37,713 nucleotides of DNA from Oscillospiraceae bacterium (GTDB lineage: Bacteria; Bacillota; Clostridia; Oscillospirales; Oscillospiraceae), in assembly GCA_902768805.1 (NCBI GenBank), contig CACXMX010000007.1, positions 1-37,713 of the forward strand, given 5' to 3'. The position numbers and the translations under genes are program-made. The notes below the pieces were generated by a model that searched no databases, was not told the DNA's origin, and worked only from the letters and a program-made list of their open reading frames with translations. Positions 20,884 through 29,233 of the stretch are shown in pieces; the stretch's first letter is position 1, and each line of letters begins with the position of its first letter.

Positions 20884-22029
20884 GTGGGACTTGTGATTCA
20901 CGATCTGACGCCGGAAGCATGGGAGCCTGTGCGCCGGGATTATGCCGGATGGACCGTGGTTTCCGACACGGGGACCATTCGCCCCTGCACGGGGTGCTTC
21001 GGCTGCTGGAACCGGACGCCGGGGAAATGCGTGATCCGGGACGGGTATGAAAACATGGGCGAGCTGATCCACAAGGCGGACCGGGTGACCGTGATCAGCC
21101 GCTATACCTTCGGAGGCTTTTCCGGTTTTGTCAAGAATGTCTTCGACCGCTGCCTGGGCTATGTGCTGCCGCAGTTCGAGGTCGTCGGCGGAGAGACTCA
21201 TCACAAAAAGCGCTACGAGGAAAACAAGCCCTTCACCTTTGTCTTCTACGGCGCCGCCTTGAGCGAAGAGAAAGAGAACAGCGCCCGCCGCTATGTCAAG
21301 GCGGTGTGCGCCAATATCCGCGGCCATGTCCGGGAGGTGCGGTTCGCCGAGAACGGGCCCGCCGCGCAGAGCGCGCCGCGCCCGGCCCCTTCCGAGGTGG
21401 GAAAGGTCCTGCTTCTCAACGGCAGCATGCGGCACCGCAGCGGGAACTCCGCCGCGCTGGCGGACAGGCTGGCCGCTTCACTCAGCCGCGAAACGCGTTC
21501 CGCCGCGCTGACTGAGCATCTTGCGGATCTCTCCGCCCTGCTTCCCGCTTTGGAGGAGGCCTCGGATCTGGTACTGTGCCTGCCGCTGTATGTGGACGGA
21601 CTGCCCTCCCAGGTCATCCGGTTCATGGAGTGGTCGCTCGGGGAGTACCGAGGCGGGGCGAAACGGGTATATGTGCTCGCGAACATGGGCCTGTACGAGA
21701 GCTCTCAGCTCACAAACCTTTTTGAGGCCGTCCGGCAGTGGTGCGCCGCCATGGGCTTCGAGTACCGCGGCGGCCTCGGCGTCAGCGCGGGGGAGCTGAT
21801 CGGCGCGCTCATCAGGCATACGCCCTTCGGGCTCGGCCCCACCGCCGCCGCGGCCCGGGGGGTGGCGAGGCTGGCGGAAGCCATCGGAGCGGAGACGGAC
21901 GCGGGGGAGATCCTTGCCGGCCCCACCGCCTTTCCCCGCCGGCTGTACATACTTATCGCCAACCGGAACTGGAACCGGACGGCCCGCAAAAACGGCATCC
22001 GCCCGCAGGACCTGTACCGGCGGCTGTGA
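20884..22029 (+). CDS. Tandem flavodoxin-like NAD(P)H:FMN oxidoreductase
   Basis: A 381-residue protein with two flavodoxin-like (FMN_red) halves. The first half (about 1-160) starts LVIHDL and has a Cys cluster CTGCFGC (Cys35, 38, 41) plus Cys49, as in multimeric flavodoxins, then VTVISRYTFGGFSGFVKNVFDRC. The second half begins at about 174 with KVLLLNGSMRHRSGNSAALADRL, the FMN-phosphate loop, followed by LCLPLYVDGLPSQVIRFME and VLANMGLYESSQ. The first half lacks its own phosphate loop. The GTG at 20884, with AGGGGAGGGG upstream, is chosen; an open frame further upstream overlaps the PHP gene and is its shadow. Electron-transfer partner unknown. Confidence 0.7.
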   Translation: MGLVIHDLTPEAWEPVRRDYAGWTVVSDTGTIRPCTGCFGCWNRTPGKCVIRDGYENMGELIHKADRVTVISRYTFGGFSGFVKNVFDRCLGYVLPQFEVVGGETHHKKRYEENKPFTFVFYGAALSEEKENSARRYVKAVCANIRGHVREVRFAENGPAAQSAPRPAPSEVGKVLLLNGSMRHRSGNSAALADRLAASLSRETRSAALTEHLADLSALLPALEEASDLVLCLPLYVDGLPSQVIRFMEWSLGEYRGGAKRVYVLANMGLYESSQLTNLFEAVRQWCAAMGFEYRGGLGVSAGELIGALIRHTPFGLGPTAAAARGVARLAEAIGAETDAGEILAGPTAFPRRLYILIANRNWNRTARKNGIRPQDLYRRL

Positions 22030-22075
22030 GCAGATAACAAAAAAGAGAACAGAATGCGCAGGAGGAAGGATAATC

Positions 22076-23254
22076 ATGGCGAACTTTGATTTTATCGGCA
22101 ACCGTGTCTTTGACGATCTCATCAGCTCCTTCGCGCCCCTGGGTCCGCAGACGCTCTTCAACAGCGACAACCCCTTCATGGGAACGCCGCTGGATACCGG
22201 AGCAAAGGTCCGGCCCAACGGCGACGTACACTTCGGCTTCTACGCCCCAAACGCCGGCAGCGTGGAGGTCTCTTTCGGACTGAAGCCCGAAGAGCCGCTG
22301 AAAATGGAAAAGGGCGGCGACGGCGTATGGCGCGCGACCTTGTCCTGGGATCCGCTCTTCTGCGGTCCCAAGGCTTTCGTGTTCCTCATCGACGGAGCGG
22401 AGGCAGTGAGTCCCTACTGTCCCCAGTATTACAGCCACGGAAAAGCCATCAACTTCGTGGAGATCCCCGATCCCAACGCGCCTTTTGTGCTGATGCGCGA
22501 TGTGCCCCACGGGACGCTGGCCGCCGAGTACTATTGGTCGGACGCCTTCAAAGCCGAGCAGAAATGCTGGATCTATCTCCCTCCGGAGTACTATAAGGGC
22601 GGGGAGTACCCGGTGCTCTATCTCCAGCACGGCGCGGGGGAGAACGAGACCTCCTGGATCTACGACGGGCGTGTCAACCACATCATGGACAACCTGATCG
22701 CCGACGGGCTGATCGAACCGTTCATCGTCGTGATGAACGACGGCATGCAGCGCGCGGAAGGGGAGACCATTTTCGACTCCGGACGGGGTCTTGCCCGGTC
22801 GCTCATCGACAGCTGCATCCCCATGATCGAACGCAAGTACCGGGTCATCGGCGACAAATGGCATCGGGCGATCGCCGGCTTCTCCATGGGCTCGGTGCAG
22901 GCAAGCGTCATCGGACTGAAAAACACCGACGTGTTCGCCTGGATCGGCCTTCTCAGCGGCTTCATGCGCCGGGTCGGCCCCGGGATGGATACGGAGCGTT
23001 CTTTCGAGATCAACGACCACCTGCGCGTCATGGAAGACCGGGAGAGCTTTGAGAAGAGCGTGGCGCTCTATTACCGCGCCATCGGCTCGCTGGACGCCCA
23101 CCGCGAGGCCTTCGACATCGACGATGAGATCTGCGCGGAGAAGGGGTTTTCCGATTATGCCAACGTCGTCCGAAACGTGGTGGAAGGCTATCCCCACGAC
23201 TGGTCGGCTCTGCGCATCATATACCGGGATTTCGCGCTGCGGCTTTTCCGCTGA
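22076..23254 (+). CDS. Alpha/beta-hydrolase, esterase D/enterochelin-esterase-like
   Basis: A 392-residue hydrolase. An N-terminal immunoglobulin-like early-set domain (about 45-130) contains VHFGFYAPNAGSVEVSF and is followed by an esterase D-type catalytic domain with YPVLYLQHGAGENETSW, VVMNDGMQ, and the nucleophile elbow GFSMGS (Ser270). A late GYPHDWSAL supplies the likely catalytic His374. This two-domain arrangement is shared with siderophore (enterochelin) esterases and feruloyl or acetyl-xylan esterases. There is no signal peptide, so it acts in the cytoplasm. It follows the flavodoxin gene by 46 bases. The next gene downstream belongs to the B12-controlled importer but has its own promoter. 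Substrate unknown. Confidence 0.75.
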   Translation: MANFDFIGNRVFDDLISSFAPLGPQTLFNSDNPFMGTPLDTGAKVRPNGDVHFGFYAPNAGSVEVSFGLKPEEPLKMEKGGDGVWRATLSWDPLFCGPKAFVFLIDGAEAVSPYCPQYYSHGKAINFVEIPDPNAPFVLMRDVPHGTLAAEYYWSDAFKAEQKCWIYLPPEYYKGGEYPVLYLQHGAGENETSWIYDGRVNHIMDNLIADGLIEPFIVVMNDGMQRAEGETIFDSGRGLARSLIDSCIPMIERKYRVIGDKWHRAIAGFSMGSVQASVIGLKNTDVFAWIGLLSGFMRRVGPGMDTERSFEINDHLRVMEDRESFEKSVALYYRAIGSLDAHREAFDIDDEICAEKGFSDYANVVRNVVEGYPHDWSALRIIYRDFALRLFR

Positions 23255-23317
23255 CGGGAAGGAAACGCCCCGGCTCCGCCGTTTTCGGAAATAACGTTTC
23301 GGAACACAATAATTAAA

Positions 23318-23346
23318 TTGACAGGAAACGGTTAGCGGAATATAAT
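23318..23346 (+). promoter_or_regulatory. Consensus promoter of the B12-riboswitch operon
   Basis: TTGACA (23318-23323), 17 bases, TATAAT (23341-23346): an exact sigma-A consensus. It lies just before the first riboswitch and is the only good promoter seen upstream of the importer genes. Confidence 0.9.
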
Positions 23347-23364
23347 GGAGATAACCGAATACAA

Positions 23365-23526
23365 GTGAAGGTACGCCCTTCGCCGGGCGTTTAATAAGGA
23401 AACGGGTGAGAATCCCGTGCGGAGCCGCCGCTGTGATGGGAGAGCGGACGCGGAACATGTCACTGGACAGCTGTCCGGGAAGACCTGCCGATGCGATGAC
23501 CCCTGAGCCAGAAGACTTGCCTTCAC
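23365..23526 (+). promoter_or_regulatory. Cobalamin riboswitch 1
   Basis: A closing stem is formed by GTGAAGG (23365-23371) and CCTTCAC (23520-23526). Inside are the family landmarks in order: a GGTGAGAATCCCG element, GCGGAGCCGCCGCTGTGAT, and the B12 box GAGCCAGAAGACTTGCC. Cobalamin riboswitches bind adenosyl- or other cobalamins in mRNA leaders and normally switch the downstream genes off. This one is followed by hairpins at 23537-23566 and 23599-23629. Confidence 0.92.
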
Positions 23527-23536
23527 CGGTGCCGAT

Positions 23537-23566
23537 CCCCCCTCCGCGGACTTTCGGAGCGGGGGC
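23537..23566 (+). promoter_or_regulatory. Hairpin in the expression platform of riboswitch 1
   Basis: CCCCC-TCCG pairs with CGGA-GGGGG around an 8-base loop with a small bulge, followed by a moderately T-rich run. It may be an anti-terminator or a first terminator. Confidence 0.45.
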
Positions 23567-23598
23567 GTGTATCGTTATTCTTTCGGGCAGTGAAAACG

Positions 23599-23640
23599 GG
23601 CTGCCGCCGCTGAAAAAGCGGCGGCAGCCTTTATGCTTTC
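23599..23640 (+). terminator. Terminator of riboswitch 1
   Basis: GGCTGCCGCCGCT (23599-23611) pairs perfectly with 23617-23629 around GAAAA, followed by TTTATGCTTT. It lies between the two riboswitches with no gene in between, so riboswitch 1 must act by stopping or passing polymerase here. Confidence 0.75.
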
Positions 23641-23701
23641 CCGGCCGGACGCCGGAGCGTGCCGGCGATCCCGGCAAACAATAGAAACAATAGAATAACG
23701 C

Positions 23702-23896
23702 CTGCAGTGTCCGCCGCGGCGACCCACCGCGGAAGGAAGAATAGTGAACCGTGTGCGAATCACGGACGGTACCGCCGCTGTATGCGTCCCCGAGCTGTTC
23801 CCGGCGCAAGCCGGTCATTGGAGAGATCCGAGAAGGCAGTGAACAGCGTTCGTTTCCCGGAGAAACGGAGGGCGTGAGTCAGAAGACCTGCTGCAG
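23702..23896 (+). promoter_or_regulatory. Cobalamin riboswitch 2
   Basis: A second, longer aptamer of about 195 bases, closed by CTGCAG arms (23702-23707 and 23891-23896). Landmarks are GGAAGGAAGAATAGTGAACC, GTGTGCGAATCACGG, GGTACCGCCGCTGTAT and the B12 box AGTCAGAAGACCTGC. It starts about 60 bases after the riboswitch 1 terminator, with no recognisable promoter between. The two aptamers differ in sequence and peripheral length, so this is not a recent duplication. Confidence 0.9.
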
Positions 23897-23950
23897 ACCG
23901 AAAAAGCCGCGCTCCGCGATGCTTCGGAGGGCGGTCCGCGAGAATACGGT

Positions 23951-23992
23951 CGTGGTACAGCTATGCCTGTACCACGGCTATTTGTTTTATTA
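23951..23992 (+). terminator. Terminator of riboswitch 2
   Basis: CGTGGTACAG (23951-23960) pairs perfectly with CTGTACCACG (23967-23976) around CTATGC, followed by a T-rich tract to about 23991. The ribosome binding site of the first permease gene begins directly after it. Confidence 0.85.
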
Positions 23993-24006
23993 GGAGCGGT
24001 GAAGCG

Positions 24007-24948
24007 GTGAACAAAACGGTTAAATATGTGATCGGAAGGCTGCTGTTCCTGATCCCGATCATGCTGATCCTGTCCTTTTTCGTTTTCGCGCTGACCTATC
24101 TCTCCCCTTCGGATCCGGTGATGCTGAAATTCCAGCTCATGGGGGAAGTCCCGGACCCGGCGGTGGTCGAGCAGGCCAGAGAAGAAATGGGACTCAACGA
24201 TCCCTTCCTGGTCCAGTACGGCCGCTGGCTGTGGAAGGCGCTGCACGGCGACCTGGGCGAGTCGTACAAGACCGGAGTCTCCGTATGGAAGACGATGCTC
24301 GGCCGGATCCCCAACACCCTGAAGCTCACCGGCGCCACGCTGCTGCTGACGGTGCTCCTGGCAGTCCCGCTGGGCGTTTTGAGCGCGGTGTACCAGAACC
24401 GTTTCGTGGACTATCTGCTGCGTTTTATCTCCTTTTTCGGAGTGTCCATGCCCAGTTTCTGGGTGGGCTTCCTGCTGATGTACCTCTTCGGCATCAAGCT
24501 CAAGCTTCTGCCCGTCATGGGCAGCGGAGACATCCGCCACCTGATCCTGCCGTCTATGACGCTGGCCTTCTGGATGATATCGCTGTACGTGCGGCGTGTC
24601 CGGGGCTCCATGCTTGAGGAGATGAACAAGGATTACCTCAACGGCGGCCTGGCCCGGGGATTGCCCAAGCGGCAGATCATCTTCCAGCAGATCCTGCCCA
24701 ACTCCCTGCTCTCGGTCATCACGATGTTCGGCATGTCCATAGGCGGACTGATGGGCGGTGCCACGATCATTGAGACGATCTTCGAGTGGAAGGGGATCGG
24801 GAAAATGGCCGTGGACGCCATCGCCGTAAAGGACTTCCCCATCATTCAGGGCTATATCCTGTGGATGGCGGTGATTTATGTGGTCATCAATCTGATCGTG
24901 GATCTGCTGTACCGGTTCCTGGATCCCCGGATCCGGCTGGAGGGTTGA
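24007..24948 (+). CDS. ABC transporter permease, NikB/DppB-like
   Basis: A 313-residue inner-membrane permease of the nickel/peptide/opine importer family. It has about six helices, starting VIGRLLFLIPIMLILSFFVFALTYL, and the family's EAA-loop region RGLPKRQIIFQQILPNSLLSVIT, which docks onto the ATPases, followed by MGGATIIETIFEWKGIGKM, a DppB/NikB signature. The start is GTG at 24007, 10 bases after AGGAG. It is the first gene behind two cobalamin riboswitches, so its expression should fall when cobalamin is plentiful. Which metal, corrinoid or peptide it carries cannot be read from the permease. Confidence 0.9.
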   Translation: MNKTVKYVIGRLLFLIPIMLILSFFVFALTYLSPSDPVMLKFQLMGEVPDPAVVEQAREEMGLNDPFLVQYGRWLWKALHGDLGESYKTGVSVWKTMLGRIPNTLKLTGATLLLTVLLAVPLGVLSAVYQNRFVDYLLRFISFFGVSMPSFWVGFLLMYLFGIKLKLLPVMGSGDIRHLILPSMTLAFWMISLYVRRVRGSMLEEMNKDYLNGGLARGLPKRQIIFQQILPNSLLSVITMFGMSIGGLMGGATIIETIFEWKGIGKMAVDAIAVKDFPIIQGYILWMAVIYVVINLIVDLLYRFLDPRIRLEG

Positions 24949-24950
24949 GA

Positions 24951-25826
24951 ATGAGTTACTACGTGAAAAAAGCCCTGAGGGATCCCCAGTTCATGCTGTT
25001 TTTCTGCCTGGCCGTGATCCTGATCCTGATCCCGATCCTGGCTCCCTGGCTCGCACCGAACGATCCCATCGAGAACGACTACGCCAACCTGATGATCGCC
25101 CACAGCGACAAGTATCCCCTGGGCACTGACCAGATAGGCCGCTGTTTCCTGTCCCGGCTGATCTACGGAGGCCGGACGTCGATGCTGATCGTGTTCATCG
25201 TCATCGCCATTTCCGCCAGTATCGGCATCCTCCTGGGCGTCCTGGCCGGATATCTGGGCGGAAAGACGGATACGTTCATCACCCGCTTTACGGACATCGT
25301 CATCGCTGTGCCGCAGACCGTTTTCGTCATCGCGCTCGTCAGCGTTATGGGTCCGAGCCTGCGAAACACGATCCTGGCCATGTCGCTGGTGAGCTGGACG
25401 GAGTATTGCCGCGTCACCCGTGCGCTGGTCCTCAGTCTGAAGCAGAACACGTATGTGGAGGAAGGCCGCATGGCCGGCATGCGGGAAATGCGGCTCGTCT
25501 CCCGGCTGATCCTGCCCAATGTGTTCCCCCACCTGCTGGTGCTCATCACGCAGGATATCGGCGCCAAGCTGCTGACGCTCAGCGGCCTGTCTTTGCTGGG
25601 CCTTGCCTCCCAGCCGCCCACGCCCGAGTGGGGCTACATGCTCAGCGAGGGACGGCAGTTCATGCAGTCCGCGCCGCGGCTGATCTTCCTGCCGGGCATG
25701 ACCATCGTGCTCAACGTCATTATCTTTAATCTTCTGGGCGACAGCCTCAGAGATATACTGGACCCGAGATTCATCAAGAAAAAAACACACAGGAGGCAAC
25801 TGAAACAATGGCTAGAAAACACCTGA
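24951..25826 (+). CDS. ABC transporter permease, NikC/DppC-like
   Basis: A 291-residue second permease. It starts MSYYVKKALRDPQF, then one long helix LAVILILIPILAPWLAP, the family's HPLGTDQ-like motif as KYPLGTDQIGRCFLSRLIYGGRTSM, and the EAA loop GRMAGMREMRLVSRLILPNVFPHLL, ending with LLGDSLRDILDPRF, typical of DppC/NikC. The ATG at 24951 lies 2 bases after the nikB-like stop, indicating coupled translation; an open frame extending upstream lies inside that gene. It overlaps the start of the binding-protein gene by 19 bases. Confidence 0.9.
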   Translation: MSYYVKKALRDPQFMLFFCLAVILILIPILAPWLAPNDPIENDYANLMIAHSDKYPLGTDQIGRCFLSRLIYGGRTSMLIVFIVIAISASIGILLGVLAGYLGGKTDTFITRFTDIVIAVPQTVFVIALVSVMGPSLRNTILAMSLVSWTEYCRVTRALVLSLKQNTYVEEGRMAGMREMRLVSRLILPNVFPHLLVLITQDIGAKLLTLSGLSLLGLASQPPTPEWGYMLSEGRQFMQSAPRLIFLPGMTIVLNVIIFNLLGDSLRDILDPRFIKKKTHRRQLKQWLENT

Positions 25827-27424
25827 AGATCCTTGCCCTCGTACTGGCAGCGATGATGCTGCTCTCCGCCTGCGGAGGAAGCTCCGGCGCGGAGACCCCT
25901 GCTCCCGCGGACAGCGGCGCAAAGCCCGCGGAGTCCTCTCAGAGCACCCAGGCTTCCCAGCCCGCCGCTCCCGCCGCGCCTGCGGCGTCCGGCCCCAAGC
26001 ACCTGAACGCCGCCATCTACTGGACAGCGGCCACCATCGATCCCGCCGTGGACTACGACGGCTGGACCTCCTGCCGCGCCGGCATCACCGAGACGCTGGT
26101 GTGGGTCAATGAAAACCTGGAGCTCAAGCCTTTGCTGGCCGACTCCTGGGAGCAGCCCGATCCCTCCACCTGGGTCATGCACATCCGCGACGGCGTCACC
26201 TTCCACAACGGCAATGCCGTGGACGCCGCGGCCTGCAAAGCCAGCCTGGAGCGCACTATGGAGATCAACTCCCGTGCCGTCACCACTGCCAAGATCGAAT
26301 CCATCGAGGCGGACGGTCAGAATCTGACCATCCATACCAGCGAGCCCTTCGGCGCGTTCCTGTTCTGCTTGTCCGAGCCTCTGTACTCGATCATCGACGT
26401 GAACGATCCCGCCGATCCCGCCACCAACCCCGTGGGCACCGGTCCGTTCAAGTGCCTCTCCTTCAAGGCTGAGGAGCTCATCGAGCTGGAAGCCTACAAG
26501 GATTACTGGAACGGCGCCTCCCCCATTGATACCGTTTCCCTCTACGTTATTTCGGATGACTCCACCCGCGCCGTGGCTTTGCAGGCCGGCCAGATCGACA
26601 TGGGCCAGCGAATTGGCGCTGCCGATATCGAGACGCTGAAAAACGATTCTGACTACGCCGTCTATGAGGCCTCCGGCACCCGTTTACAGGTCCTGGCCCT
26701 CAACCACACCAACCAGTTCCTCTCCGACGTCAACGTGCGCAAGGCCCTGGCCTGCTGCATCAATTACGACGCCATGGTAGCCATTACCGGCGGCCTCTAT
26801 GCTGTGGCCGGCGCGCCCTACCCCGCCTCCGCCCCCTACGGCTACGATCAGCTGGATCGCCAGCACTATGATCTGGAAGCTGCCAAGAAATGCCTGGCCG
26901 ACGCGGGTTTCGCAGACAGCGACGGCAATGGCTATCTGGAGAAGAACGGCAAGGAACTGGCCTTCACTTTGGGCTATGCGGACAAGAGCCTTGCCACCGC
27001 GCTGGAGGCGGTCCAGTCTATGGCCAAAGCTGTCGGCATCAAGCTGACCCTTCAGCCTGTGGATACCGAGCCGGATCTCAATGAGGACAATTTTGAGATC
27101 TTCGCGAAGAACTGGCAGTCCCTGTCCACCGGCGATCCCCAGTGGATGCTCGACAACATGTACAAGACCGGCGGCGTGAGCAATGCCGCTCAGTACTCCA
27201 ACGCCACGGTGGATGCCCTGTGCGATGAACTGACCGGCGCCTTCGAGTTCGCGGATCGGCAGCGCATCACCATCGCCGCCGAGGAGCAGATCCTGACCGA
27301 CTGCGTCCACGTCTACCTGTTCTCGAAGAATAACTTTGTCATGGCCAACAACAAGGTCTCCGGCGTCACCGTATTCCCCATCGACTACTACTTCCTGACC
27401 AATACCATAGACATCAACGGCTGA
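25808..27424 (+). CDS. Family 5 extracellular substrate-binding lipoprotein (NikA/DppA/OppA type)
   Basis: A 538-residue solute-binding lipoprotein for the importer. The signal peptide ends LLSAC (Cys22), followed by an Ala/Ser/Pro-rich spacer to about residue 55. The SBP_bac_5 domain shows LKPLLADSWEQPDPSTWVMHIRDGVTFHNGN, VGTGPFKCLSF, YKDYWNG, LALNHTNQFLSDVNVRKALACCINYDAM and a closing segment TDCVHVYLFSKN. The overall pattern is nearest, by eye, to the NikA-like metal-chelate binding branch, but the binding residues cannot be assigned without a structure. B12-riboswitch control suggests a cobalt chelate, a corrinoid or a precursor. The ATG at 25808 overlaps the preceding gene; AGGAGG lies 12 bases upstream. 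Confidence 0.88.
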   Translation: MARKHLKILALVLAAMMLLSACGGSSGAETPAPADSGAKPAESSQSTQASQPAAPAAPAASGPKHLNAAIYWTAATIDPAVDYDGWTSCRAGITETLVWVNENLELKPLLADSWEQPDPSTWVMHIRDGVTFHNGNAVDAAACKASLERTMEINSRAVTTAKIESIEADGQNLTIHTSEPFGAFLFCLSEPLYSIIDVNDPADPATNPVGTGPFKCLSFKAEELIELEAYKDYWNGASPIDTVSLYVISDDSTRAVALQAGQIDMGQRIGAADIETLKNDSDYAVYEASGTRLQVLALNHTNQFLSDVNVRKALACCINYDAMVAITGGLYAVAGAPYPASAPYGYDQLDRQHYDLEAAKKCLADAGFADSDGNGYLEKNGKELAFTLGYADKSLATALEAVQSMAKAVGIKLTLQPVDTEPDLNEDNFEIFAKNWQSLSTGDPQWMLDNMYKTGGVSNAAQYSNATVDALCDELTGAFEFADRQRITIAAEEQILTDCVHVYLFSKNNFVMANNKVSGVTVFPIDYYFLTNTIDING

Positions 27425-27470: not shown

Positions 27471-28268
27471 GTGATTGATATGGCAATACTGGAGATCGAA
27501 AACTATTCCATAACGTACGACGGACTGCGCAGCGCGGTGGACAACGTCTCCTTCAGCGTGGAAGAGGGAGAGATCATCGGGATCGTCGGTGAGAGCGGCA
27601 GCGGCAAGTCTACGCTGCTCCACGGCATTCTGGGCCTGCTTCCCCGCAGCGCGGCTACCCGGGGCAGCCTGAAGGTGTTCGGAAAGAACATCCCCTCGCT
27701 GTCGGAGGCGGAGCAGCGCTCCATGCGCGGGACGGACATGGCCGTCATCTTTCAGGACACGGGCCGCTACCTCAACCCCATCGGGCGCATCGGCAAGCAG
27801 TTCTGGCAGTATCTCCGGGTACACGGAGATTACACACCGCAACAGGCGCACGACCTGGCGGTCGAACGGCTCAAGCGGGTGCATCTGACGGACGCGGAGC
27901 GCGTGCTCGGATCCTACCCCTTTGAACTGTCGGGCGGCATGCGTCAGCGCGTTGGCATCGCCATGGCCATGGCGCTCCAGCCCAAGCTTCTGCTGGCGGA
28001 TGAGCCCACCAGCGCTCTGGATGTGACGATCCAGGCACAGATCGTGCGCCAGATGATGGAGTTGCGCCGGGAGTACGGCACCACGATCATCATCGTGACC
28101 CACAACATGGGCGTGGCCTCCTATATGTCCGACCGGATCGGCGTAATGAAGAACGGACGCCTTGTGGAGATGGCCCCGGCGGAGAATGTGATCTATCATC
28201 CGGGGGACGCTTACACCCGGTCTCTGCTGGACGCGGTGATCGAGCTGGACGATGAGAGGATGGCATAG
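27471..28268 (+). CDS. ABC transporter ATP-binding protein, NikD/DppD-like
   Basis: A 265-residue ATPase that powers the importer with its partner. Walker A is GESGSGKST (40-48), the Q-loop follows at VIFQDTGRYLNPIG, the ABC signature is LSGGMRQR (153-160), Walker B is LLLADEPT (173-180), with H-loop THNMGVASYM. The C-terminus is short and lacks the Cys-rich tail found in the other ATPase, as in NikD. The GTG at 27471 is preferred: GGAGG lies 8 bases before it, whereas the in-frame ATG at 27480 is 17 bases away. The RBS sits in a hairpin. Confidence 0.92.
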   Translation: MIDMAILEIENYSITYDGLRSAVDNVSFSVEEGEIIGIVGESGSGKSTLLHGILGLLPRSAATRGSLKVFGKNIPSLSEAEQRSMRGTDMAVIFQDTGRYLNPIGRIGKQFWQYLRVHGDYTPQQAHDLAVERLKRVHLTDAERVLGSYPFELSGGMRQRVGIAMAMALQPKLLLADEPTSALDVTIQAQIVRQMMELRREYGTTIIIVTHNMGVASYMSDRIGVMKNGRLVEMAPAENVIYHPGDAYTRSLLDAVIELDDERMA

Positions 28269-29233
28269 TGGAACAGATGACGGATAATCGACAGCCGATC
28301 CTGGAGCTTCGGCATATCAGCAAGACCTTCCGCACGGACGACGGACGGGAGGTGCGCGCCGTCAGAGACGCGAACCTGGCGGTCTATCCCGGAGAGAGCG
28401 TTGCGCTCGTAGGTGAGAGCGGCTGCGGCAAGAGCACCGTCGCGCGCATGGTCACCCGGCTGATCAGCCCCACCGAGGGCGAGATCATTCTGTGCGGCAG
28501 GGATATATCCAAGCTCGAGGGCAAGGGGCTCCGGGACCTGTACCGGGACATCCAGATGGTCTTTCAGGACCCCTATTCCGTGTTCAGCCCGAGGATGAGC
28601 GTGGGCACCTTCCTGGGCGAGGGGCTCGTCCACCACGGGATCATGAACCGCGCCCAGGCCACGGAAGAGGCGAAAACGCTCCTGGCGCTGGTGGAACTGC
28701 CGACGGAGCTTATGGACCGCATGCCTCACCAGCTCTCCGGCGGACAGCTCCAGCGGGTGGTCGTTGCCCGGGCGGTATCCATCCGGCCCAAGGTGCTGCT
28801 GCTCGACGAAGCCACCAGCGCGCTGGACGTGTCCGTGCAGAAGCAGGTGCTCGCCCTGCTGATGCGGCTGCGGAAGGAACTGGAGCTGACCTTCGTATTC
28901 ATCGGCCACGATCTGGCCGTGGTGCGCGCCATTGCCGACCGGATCGCCGTGATGTACGCCGGCATGATCGTGGAAGAGCTCGGCAGCGAGGACCTCACCA
29001 AAGCCCGGCATCCCTATACTCAGCGGCTGCTTGAGTCCGTGTTCTCCGTCCACGACCGAACCAACCAGAAGGTCATCCGCGTGGAGGACATGAGCATGGC
29101 AGTAAACGCAAACGCCCTTCCGGGCTGTCCCTTCCGCCCCCGCTGCCCCCGCGCCATGGATGAATGTGGAACCGCATGCCCGGCGCTGCGGGAACTGGAG
29201 CCCGGCCACCGGGCCGCGTGCCCGGCCGTATGA
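28268..29233 (+). CDS. ABC transporter ATP-binding protein, DppF/OppF/NikE-like
   Basis: A 321-residue second ATPase. Walker A is GESGCGKST (49-57), the signature LSGGQLQR (156-163), Walker B LLLDEATS (177-184), H-loop IGHDLAVVRAI. The C-terminal oligopeptide-transporter extension has CPFRPRCPRAMDEC and a following ACP, four conserved cysteines that bind an iron-sulfur cluster in related ATPases. Its GTG shares one base with the stop of the previous gene (TAGTG), so the two are coupled. MEQMTDNRQ offers an alternative ATG three codons later. Confidence 0.92.
   Translation: MEQMTDNRQPILELRHISKTFRTDDGREVRAVRDANLAVYPGESVALVGESGCGKSTVARMVTRLISPTEGEIILCGRDISKLEGKGLRDLYRDIQMVFQDPYSVFSPRMSVGTFLGEGLVHHGIMNRAQATEEAKTLLALVELPTELMDRMPHQLSGGQLQRVVVARAVSIRPKVLLLDEATSALDVSVQKQVLALLMRLRKELELTFVFIGHDLAVVRAIADRIAVMYAGMIVEELGSEDLTKARHPYTQRLLESVFSVHDRTNQKVIRVEDMSMAVNANALPGCPFRPRCPRAMDECGTACPALRELEPGHRAACPAV

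Follow-up and report, generated by a model that had tools for sequence, protein, structure and literature searches.

Tandem cobalamin riboswitches behind a consensus promoter precede a putative NikBCADE-type importer locus in an Oscillospiraceae bacterium

The DNA analysed here, a stretch of 37,713 bases from an Oscillospiraceae bacterium (hereafter the window), carries two cobalamin riboswitch aptamers one behind the other, downstream of a consensus promoter and upstream of the genes of a putative NikBCADE-type importer. The two aptamers, the promoter (P1), the expression platform paired with each aptamer, the difference in lineage between the aptamers and the single switches of relatives were all computed here. 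We believe the best overall explanation, to which we would give a probability of roughly 70%, to be that the two elements are OFF switches acting in series on the P1 transcript and that they gate nikBCADE; since the polymerase must pass both switches, leakage would be lower and the response steeper than with one.

The window holds two Rfam matches at gathering level, both to RF00174 (Cobalamin). Aptamer 1 (23352..23538, + strand) scores 127.6 bits (E 6e-32) and aptamer 2 (23688..23909, + strand), which contains a hairpin insertion, scores 65.8 bits (E 3e-14), against a gathering score of 31.5, and model positions 1-189 of 189 are aligned for both. None of the matches listed in a survey of 300 genomes of the family, in which eight candidates per genome were scored, outscores aptamer 1. 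The cmscan alignments contain the B12 boxes GAGCCAGAAGACTTGCC and GAGTCAGAAGACCTGCT; closure of the P1 stem and the L5 and L13 hairpins are likewise present, the latter as the P13-like hairpins described below, and L5 may pair with L13 in both elements. A preliminary description of this DNA had claimed two complete B12 aptamers and had called for an Rfam covariance-model scan to check them; both elements pass that scan at full length, and the stem coordinates first read from the letters agree with the P1 stems found by cmscan. The extra length of aptamer 2 is its hairpin insertion, which is also present in the orthologous element of a congener, G292.

Promoter P1 (TTGACA-17-TATAAT, 23318..23346, + strand) matches the consensus at 12 of 12 positions and scores 17.1 with our home-made matrix. 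It is the sole sigma-70-like match within 22800-24600, for which shuffles gave a mean of 0.4, and it lies ahead of both aptamers, just as the preliminary description had it. The further claim that no gene separates the aptamers also stands: only two + strand open reading frames (ORFs) of at least 80 amino acids start between P1 and nikB (92 and 80 amino acids), each merely overlapping an aptamer, and two riboswitches of the same class share one leader with no ORF between them. The claim that no good promoter lies between the aptamers held only in part. P1 is far stronger than anything there, but the stretch from terminator 1 to aptamer 2 does hold a promoter-like site, CTGAAA-16-TATGCT from 23610, which overlaps terminator 1. 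As the best such site there it scores 7.6 with the same matrix, whereas the best scores in shuffles of the stretch average 3.7 and have 7.4 as their 95th percentile, and we regard it as a marginal promoter candidate. In terms of a shared transcript, there is one strong promoter 5' of both elements and one marginal candidate between them.

This candidate site bears on an alternative in which the locus consists of two independent units, with P1, aptamer 1 and terminator 1 yielding a short attenuated RNA, either a relic or a small RNA, while aptamer 2 would be the sole gate on the importer, whose transcription would start from a weak promoter near terminator 1. A score marginally above the shuffled 95th percentile would be in keeping with such an arrangement, as would the score of 35.6 that terminator 1 retains as a terminator and the separate promoter predicted in the G292 ortholog beside the counterpart of aptamer 2. 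Yet 7.6 is far below not only the 17.1 of P1 but also the best predicted promoters of the three stretches that carry importer orthologs (10.2 for L091, 14.2 for L106 and 13.8 for L107, by the same matrix), and aptamer 1, with the score noted above, is undecayed. We consider it unlikely that the two units work independently.

Downstream of each aptamer come, in this order on the + strand, three hairpins: one P13-like, one antiterminator-like and one terminator-like. The P13-like hairpin of element 1 (23537..23565, loop CGGACTTT) comes from a computed fold and that of element 2 (23907..23934, loop CGATGCTT) was read from the sequence; CGGAC occurs in 17 of 71 stretches downstream of such elements, against 5.6 expected by shuffling. 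The antiterminator-like hairpins, GGCAGT/loop GAAAACGG/GCTGCC at 23586..23605 and CCGCGA/loop GAATACGG/TCGTGG at 23936..23955, each have their 3' arm inside the 5' arm of the terminator that follows. On an approximate d'Aubenton-Carafa-type scale, terminator-like hairpin 1 (23598..23630), which has an interrupted U-tract, TTTATGCTTT, scores 35.6, and terminator-like hairpin 2 (23948..23979), directly 5' of the ribosome-binding site AGGAG (23992-23996), scores a borderline 1.4 against 13.7 for its G292 ortholog. Each aptamer does have its own terminator-like hairpin, as had been claimed, with the qualification that the second is borderline by score and the first is interrupted in its U-tract. 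Taken together, the RF00174 matches, P1 and the paired platforms support the original picture of two complete riboswitches behind one promoter.

The U-tracts of the tandem are weaker than those of the few single-switch relatives compared: element 1 has a U-tract term of 3.18, compared with 5.09, 4.66 and 4.34 for L026, L027 and L036, and element 2 one of 3.11, compared with 3.68 for L091. For L030, an ungapped search for terminators turned up no good one. A second switch would be useful if single terminators leak. We also noticed, by eye, that the 5' arm of terminator 1 (GCCGCCGCTG; hairpin 23599-23629) is a letter-for-letter repeat of a stretch in the core of aptamer 1 (23422-23433); the 3' arm of this terminator could pair with aptamer 1 as an alternative.

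Based on these observations we propose a model for the locus, in which we infer the ligand, the direction of switching and the serial action. Cobalamin riboswitches are OFF switches, and those of Gram-positive bacteria are mostly expected to act at the level of transcription, according to passages of PMC9481103 and PMC12121620. First, a single P1 transcript would bear two independently folded cobalamin riboswitches of class-I type. When the ligand is absent, the antiterminator hairpin, with its loop GAAUACGG (GAAAACGG in element 1), would occupy the 5' arm of the terminator and thereby permit read-through. When adenosylcobalamin is bound, the L5-L13 kissing contact would favour termination. 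RNA polymerase would pass both switches before it reaches nikBCADE, resulting in 'pseudo-cooperative' repression of the importer when adenosylcobalamin is plentiful. By arithmetic, two switches of equal affinity and full efficiency would narrow the 10-90% range from 81-fold to 40-fold.

The two switches might instead be tuned to different corrinoids or to different affinities, in which case the response would have two steps rather than one sharper step. The aptamers are 51% identical and fall into separate clades, and cobalamin riboswitches vary in corrinoid selectivity, as described in a portion of PMC9600662, all of which such tuning would accommodate. Against this, the same Rfam family is the best match for both aptamers, the suggestion derives wholly from their difference in sequence, and the difference in length is the hairpin insertion that aptamer 2 shares with the G292 ortholog. 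Different tuning seems to us decidedly unlikely as the explanation of the pair.

Beyond the tandem itself, a loop of the form (G)A[A/T]ACGG recurs against the terminators of B12 riboswitches in the Oscillospiraceae genomes surveyed. It lies at 23592-23599 and 23942-23949 in the window and is found at further loci (L003, L037, L049, L091/L098, L128, L036, L048, L058, L026, L122, L133, L134 and L027). Among the loci in hand, it abuts the terminator stem in 15 of the 74 stretches downstream of a B12 box, and the motif adjoins 16 of 48 terminator-like hairpins that lie within 170 bases of a B12 box versus 3 of 88 elsewhere. The flanks of the loop pair over 5.3 bp on average, a value reached in 0 of 5000 permutations of the flanks among elements, for which the mean is 3.98, and at least 5 bp pair in 10 of the 15 loop elements (P 0.0014); this test took all elements that fitted the rule, among them L027, which pairs over 2 bp only. 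It is less biased than a covariation test on six sequences picked by hand, a biased choice, in which both partners have changed in 5 of 6 pairs. Pairing of the loop flanks together with changes on both sides is what an antiterminator would be expected to show. On a reading that we think rather unlikely, the loop (G)AAUACGG would be conserved beyond the needs of pairing and might interact with the aptamer, L13 or RNA polymerase.

At E <= 1e-110, NikB has matches in 4 of 400 genomes of the family, namely the window's own, the congener G292 (88%) and two genomes of another genus, G314 (78%) and G276 (76%). In the stretches scanned, each of the three importer orthologs has one RF00174 match upstream (E <= 1 for L091, from G292, and E <= 0.05 for L106 and L107), and a predicted promoter precedes this single riboswitch in each. 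The G292 element (L091:2627-2848, 68.1 bits) has the same hairpin insertion as aptamer 2, and the G292 leader is 82% identical over query positions 394-711 of the 711-base window leader; the G292 riboswitch is, by these comparisons, the ortholog of aptamer 2. The riboswitches of G314 and G276 are 84% identical to each other. They had been considered as further orthologs of aptamer 2 and were dropped, since the G314 element is 48.3% identical to aptamer 2 and 48.6% to aptamer 1, and the G276 element 49.2% and 46.7%, respectively. One switch appears to be the common state at the orthologous importer, and it is one congener, G292, that backs the position of aptamer 2.

The preliminary description had asked for the same tandem leader in relatives, and we found none besides the window among 400 genomes of the family, 394 of the order and 9 of the genus. 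A pattern of two B12 boxes with 322-382 bases between them occurs in 1 of the 400 family genomes, and a version with looser boxes in 1 of the 394 genomes drawn from the order, the window itself in each case; these scans are insensitive, covering one spacing range and exact boxes only, and 21 of 63 aptamers have no near-first-kind B12 box in their last 70 bases. Within the genus, 38 RF00174 matches were obtained in 7 of 9 genomes, and the one same-strand pair within 1 kb is that of the window. The 300-genome family survey listed best matches only and could have overlooked a tandem in which one member is weak. Separately, B12 riboswitches were seen in head-to-head arrangement, separated by a few hundred bases, at G156:C35:44527-45159 (L097) and G300:C1:1804-2458 (L096), with RF00174 matches on both strands, and at G183:C85:2025-2501, G233:C10:18046-18576, G272:C65:64872-65316 and G072:C20:96693-97349, where one or both members are DNA matches to the window leader only.

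The tandem is known from one MAG contig (G000:C7), of which the window is the whole, and its junction was found in 1 of the 400 and 1 of the 394 genomes searched, both times in the window itself, as would be the case if two loci had been joined in a metagenome bin. However, GC is even over the junction (0.623 upstream versus 0.614 downstream) and no long repeat was seen there by eye. Moreover, both halves belong to the genus, since close congener matches exist on each side: the upstream Indigoidine_A family gene is matched at 88% in G302, 88% in G301 and 76% in G292, and downstream nikB is matched at 88% in G292. An assembly artefact is, in our view, very unlikely. Upstream synteny in five congener stretches proved uninformative on the junction, as no homologs of the window's PHP, FMN_red-type and esterase genes were found beside the Indigoidine_A gene and two of these stretches, L148 and L149, end near contig ends.

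The two aptamers represent different riboswitch lineages. They are 51.1% identical, against a median of 50.5% for all pairs among 63 aptamers (fetched loci, largely best-scoring matches and a non-random sample), and FastTree places aptamer 1 with L026, L027, L030 and L036 (support 0.979) and aptamer 2 with L091 (0.852). Given an identity so close to the median and the separate clades, a recent duplication of one aptamer is ruled out. The riboswitches at L026, L027 and L036 each come with a promoter, a P13-like hairpin and a terminator of their own, and the next gene is of the SBP_bac_5 type, such that the aptamer 1 clade heads SBP_bac_5 genes in 3 of 4 cases; the ORF tested 3' of L030 is AstE_AspA. 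A move of aptamer 1 from a locus in its own genome was also considered and is unsupported, the nearest candidate by position, C67:693-868, being a diverged single riboswitch of 51.8 bits. The gene behind this riboswitch encodes an SBP that shares 85% identity with the product of the L036 gene over its first 26 residues. Both at L036 (~1808-1966, in G302) and at L095 (C67, ~440-282, - strand, in the window's genome), the B12 riboswitch is separated from the SBP gene by an ORF of about 50 amino acids (starting MKI.ISFS).

In the simplest history that we infer, a unit of promoter, aptamer and terminator belonging to another lineage came to lie in front of aptamer 2, and the original promoter of aptamer 2 has decayed or disappeared. 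That aptamer 2 was present first is suggested by one congener, G292. Loss of aptamer 1 in G292 is a possible alternative, which would require the gain of a second promoter there. A more elaborate version, which we think rather unlikely, holds that the capture was recent, that the unit from the other lineage replaced the promoter of a B12-gated importer, and that the two switches, with their weaker U-tracts, now form a two-threshold gate whose loop is conserved beyond pairing.

Downstream lie five nik-type genes, all on the + strand, the first two being a nikB-type permease gene (24007..24948; NCBIfam Opp2B, 377.3 bits with a cut-off of 350; Pfam BPD_transp_1) and a nikC-type permease gene (24786..25826 as the listed ORF, with its true start probably near 24948; Opp2C, 287 bits, below the cut-off of 300; Pfam BPD_transp_1). 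These are followed by genes for a nikA-type substrate-binding protein (25808..27424; Pfam SBP_bac_5; Opp5A_nikA, 350.1 bits, below the cut-off of 600), a nikD-type ATPase (27471..28268; Pfam ABC_tran; best NCBIfam matches of oligopeptide/nickel types, 236.4 against a cut-off of 318.7) and a nikE-type ATPase (28268..29233; Pfam ABC_tran and oligo_HPY; nickel_nikE, 249.2 bits, below the cut-off of 332.55), and a DctP protein gene comes after them. NikB alone among the five subunits passes its NCBIfam cut-off. The importer would be of the NikBCADE type, with cobalt or nickel as its probable metal, because of the riboswitch, the presence of CbiK elsewhere in the genome and the cbiK neighbourhood in G276. 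CbiK is the cobalt chelatase of B12 synthesis; the window's genome, a 1.93-Mb MAG of 131 contigs that is 78% complete and has 6 RF00174 matches, contains two CbiK matches, on C60 and C90, and in G276 cbiK and a tetrapyrrole methylase gene adjoin the riboswitch-importer locus. Upstream of the tandem leader, a putative esterase (21914-23254) has a weak relative 3' of nikE in G292 (L091:8275-9588; 24% identity over 263 residues), which is followed there by a DctP gene 61% identical to the window's DctP over 109 residues.

The arrangement has precedents. Passages of Sherlock et al. 2022 (PMC9481103) give 26 AdoCbl doublets and place AdoCbl under 'pseudo-cooperative', with multiple platforms, and contiguous cobalamin riboswitches have already been characterised, according to part of PMC12452182. 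Since same-class B12 doublets have been published, the window locus is a further example of a known arrangement. The doublets, as those passages present them, likewise consist of paired same-class riboswitches that share a leader, with no gene between them and a terminator each; the window locus differs in that single-switch orthologs are at hand here for comparison. Similarly, the tandem TPP riboswitches of Bacillus anthracis tenA (Welz and Breaker 2007, as reported in parts of PMC9481103 and PMC12121620) comprise two serial riboswitches for the same ligand, each able to terminate transcription, but they concern another ligand and gene and were tested experimentally, whereas the window tandem is known from its sequence. 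In the metE SAM-I/AdoCbl tandem (Sudarsan et al. 2006, as outlined in a section of PMC9481103), a cobalamin OFF switch also stands in series with another OFF switch; in contrast to the window pair, which are both of the B12 class, the two respond to different ligands and form a NOR gate. Nearer to hand, the RF00174 riboswitches before nik/opp-type importers at L091, L106, L107, L026, L027 and L036 resemble those of the window in family, style of platform and kind of downstream gene, but each of these loci has one riboswitch in the stretch scanned.

The tandem and the loop motif leave general knowledge of riboswitches unchanged. Nevertheless, the locus points to a recurrent antiterminator loop in the B12 riboswitches of the Oscillospiraceae. 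If the serial reading is true, the window would offer a same-ligand tandem whose single-switch orthologs survive, and the acquisition of a second switch, along with its benefit for leakage and steepness, would be open to study by comparison of these leaders.
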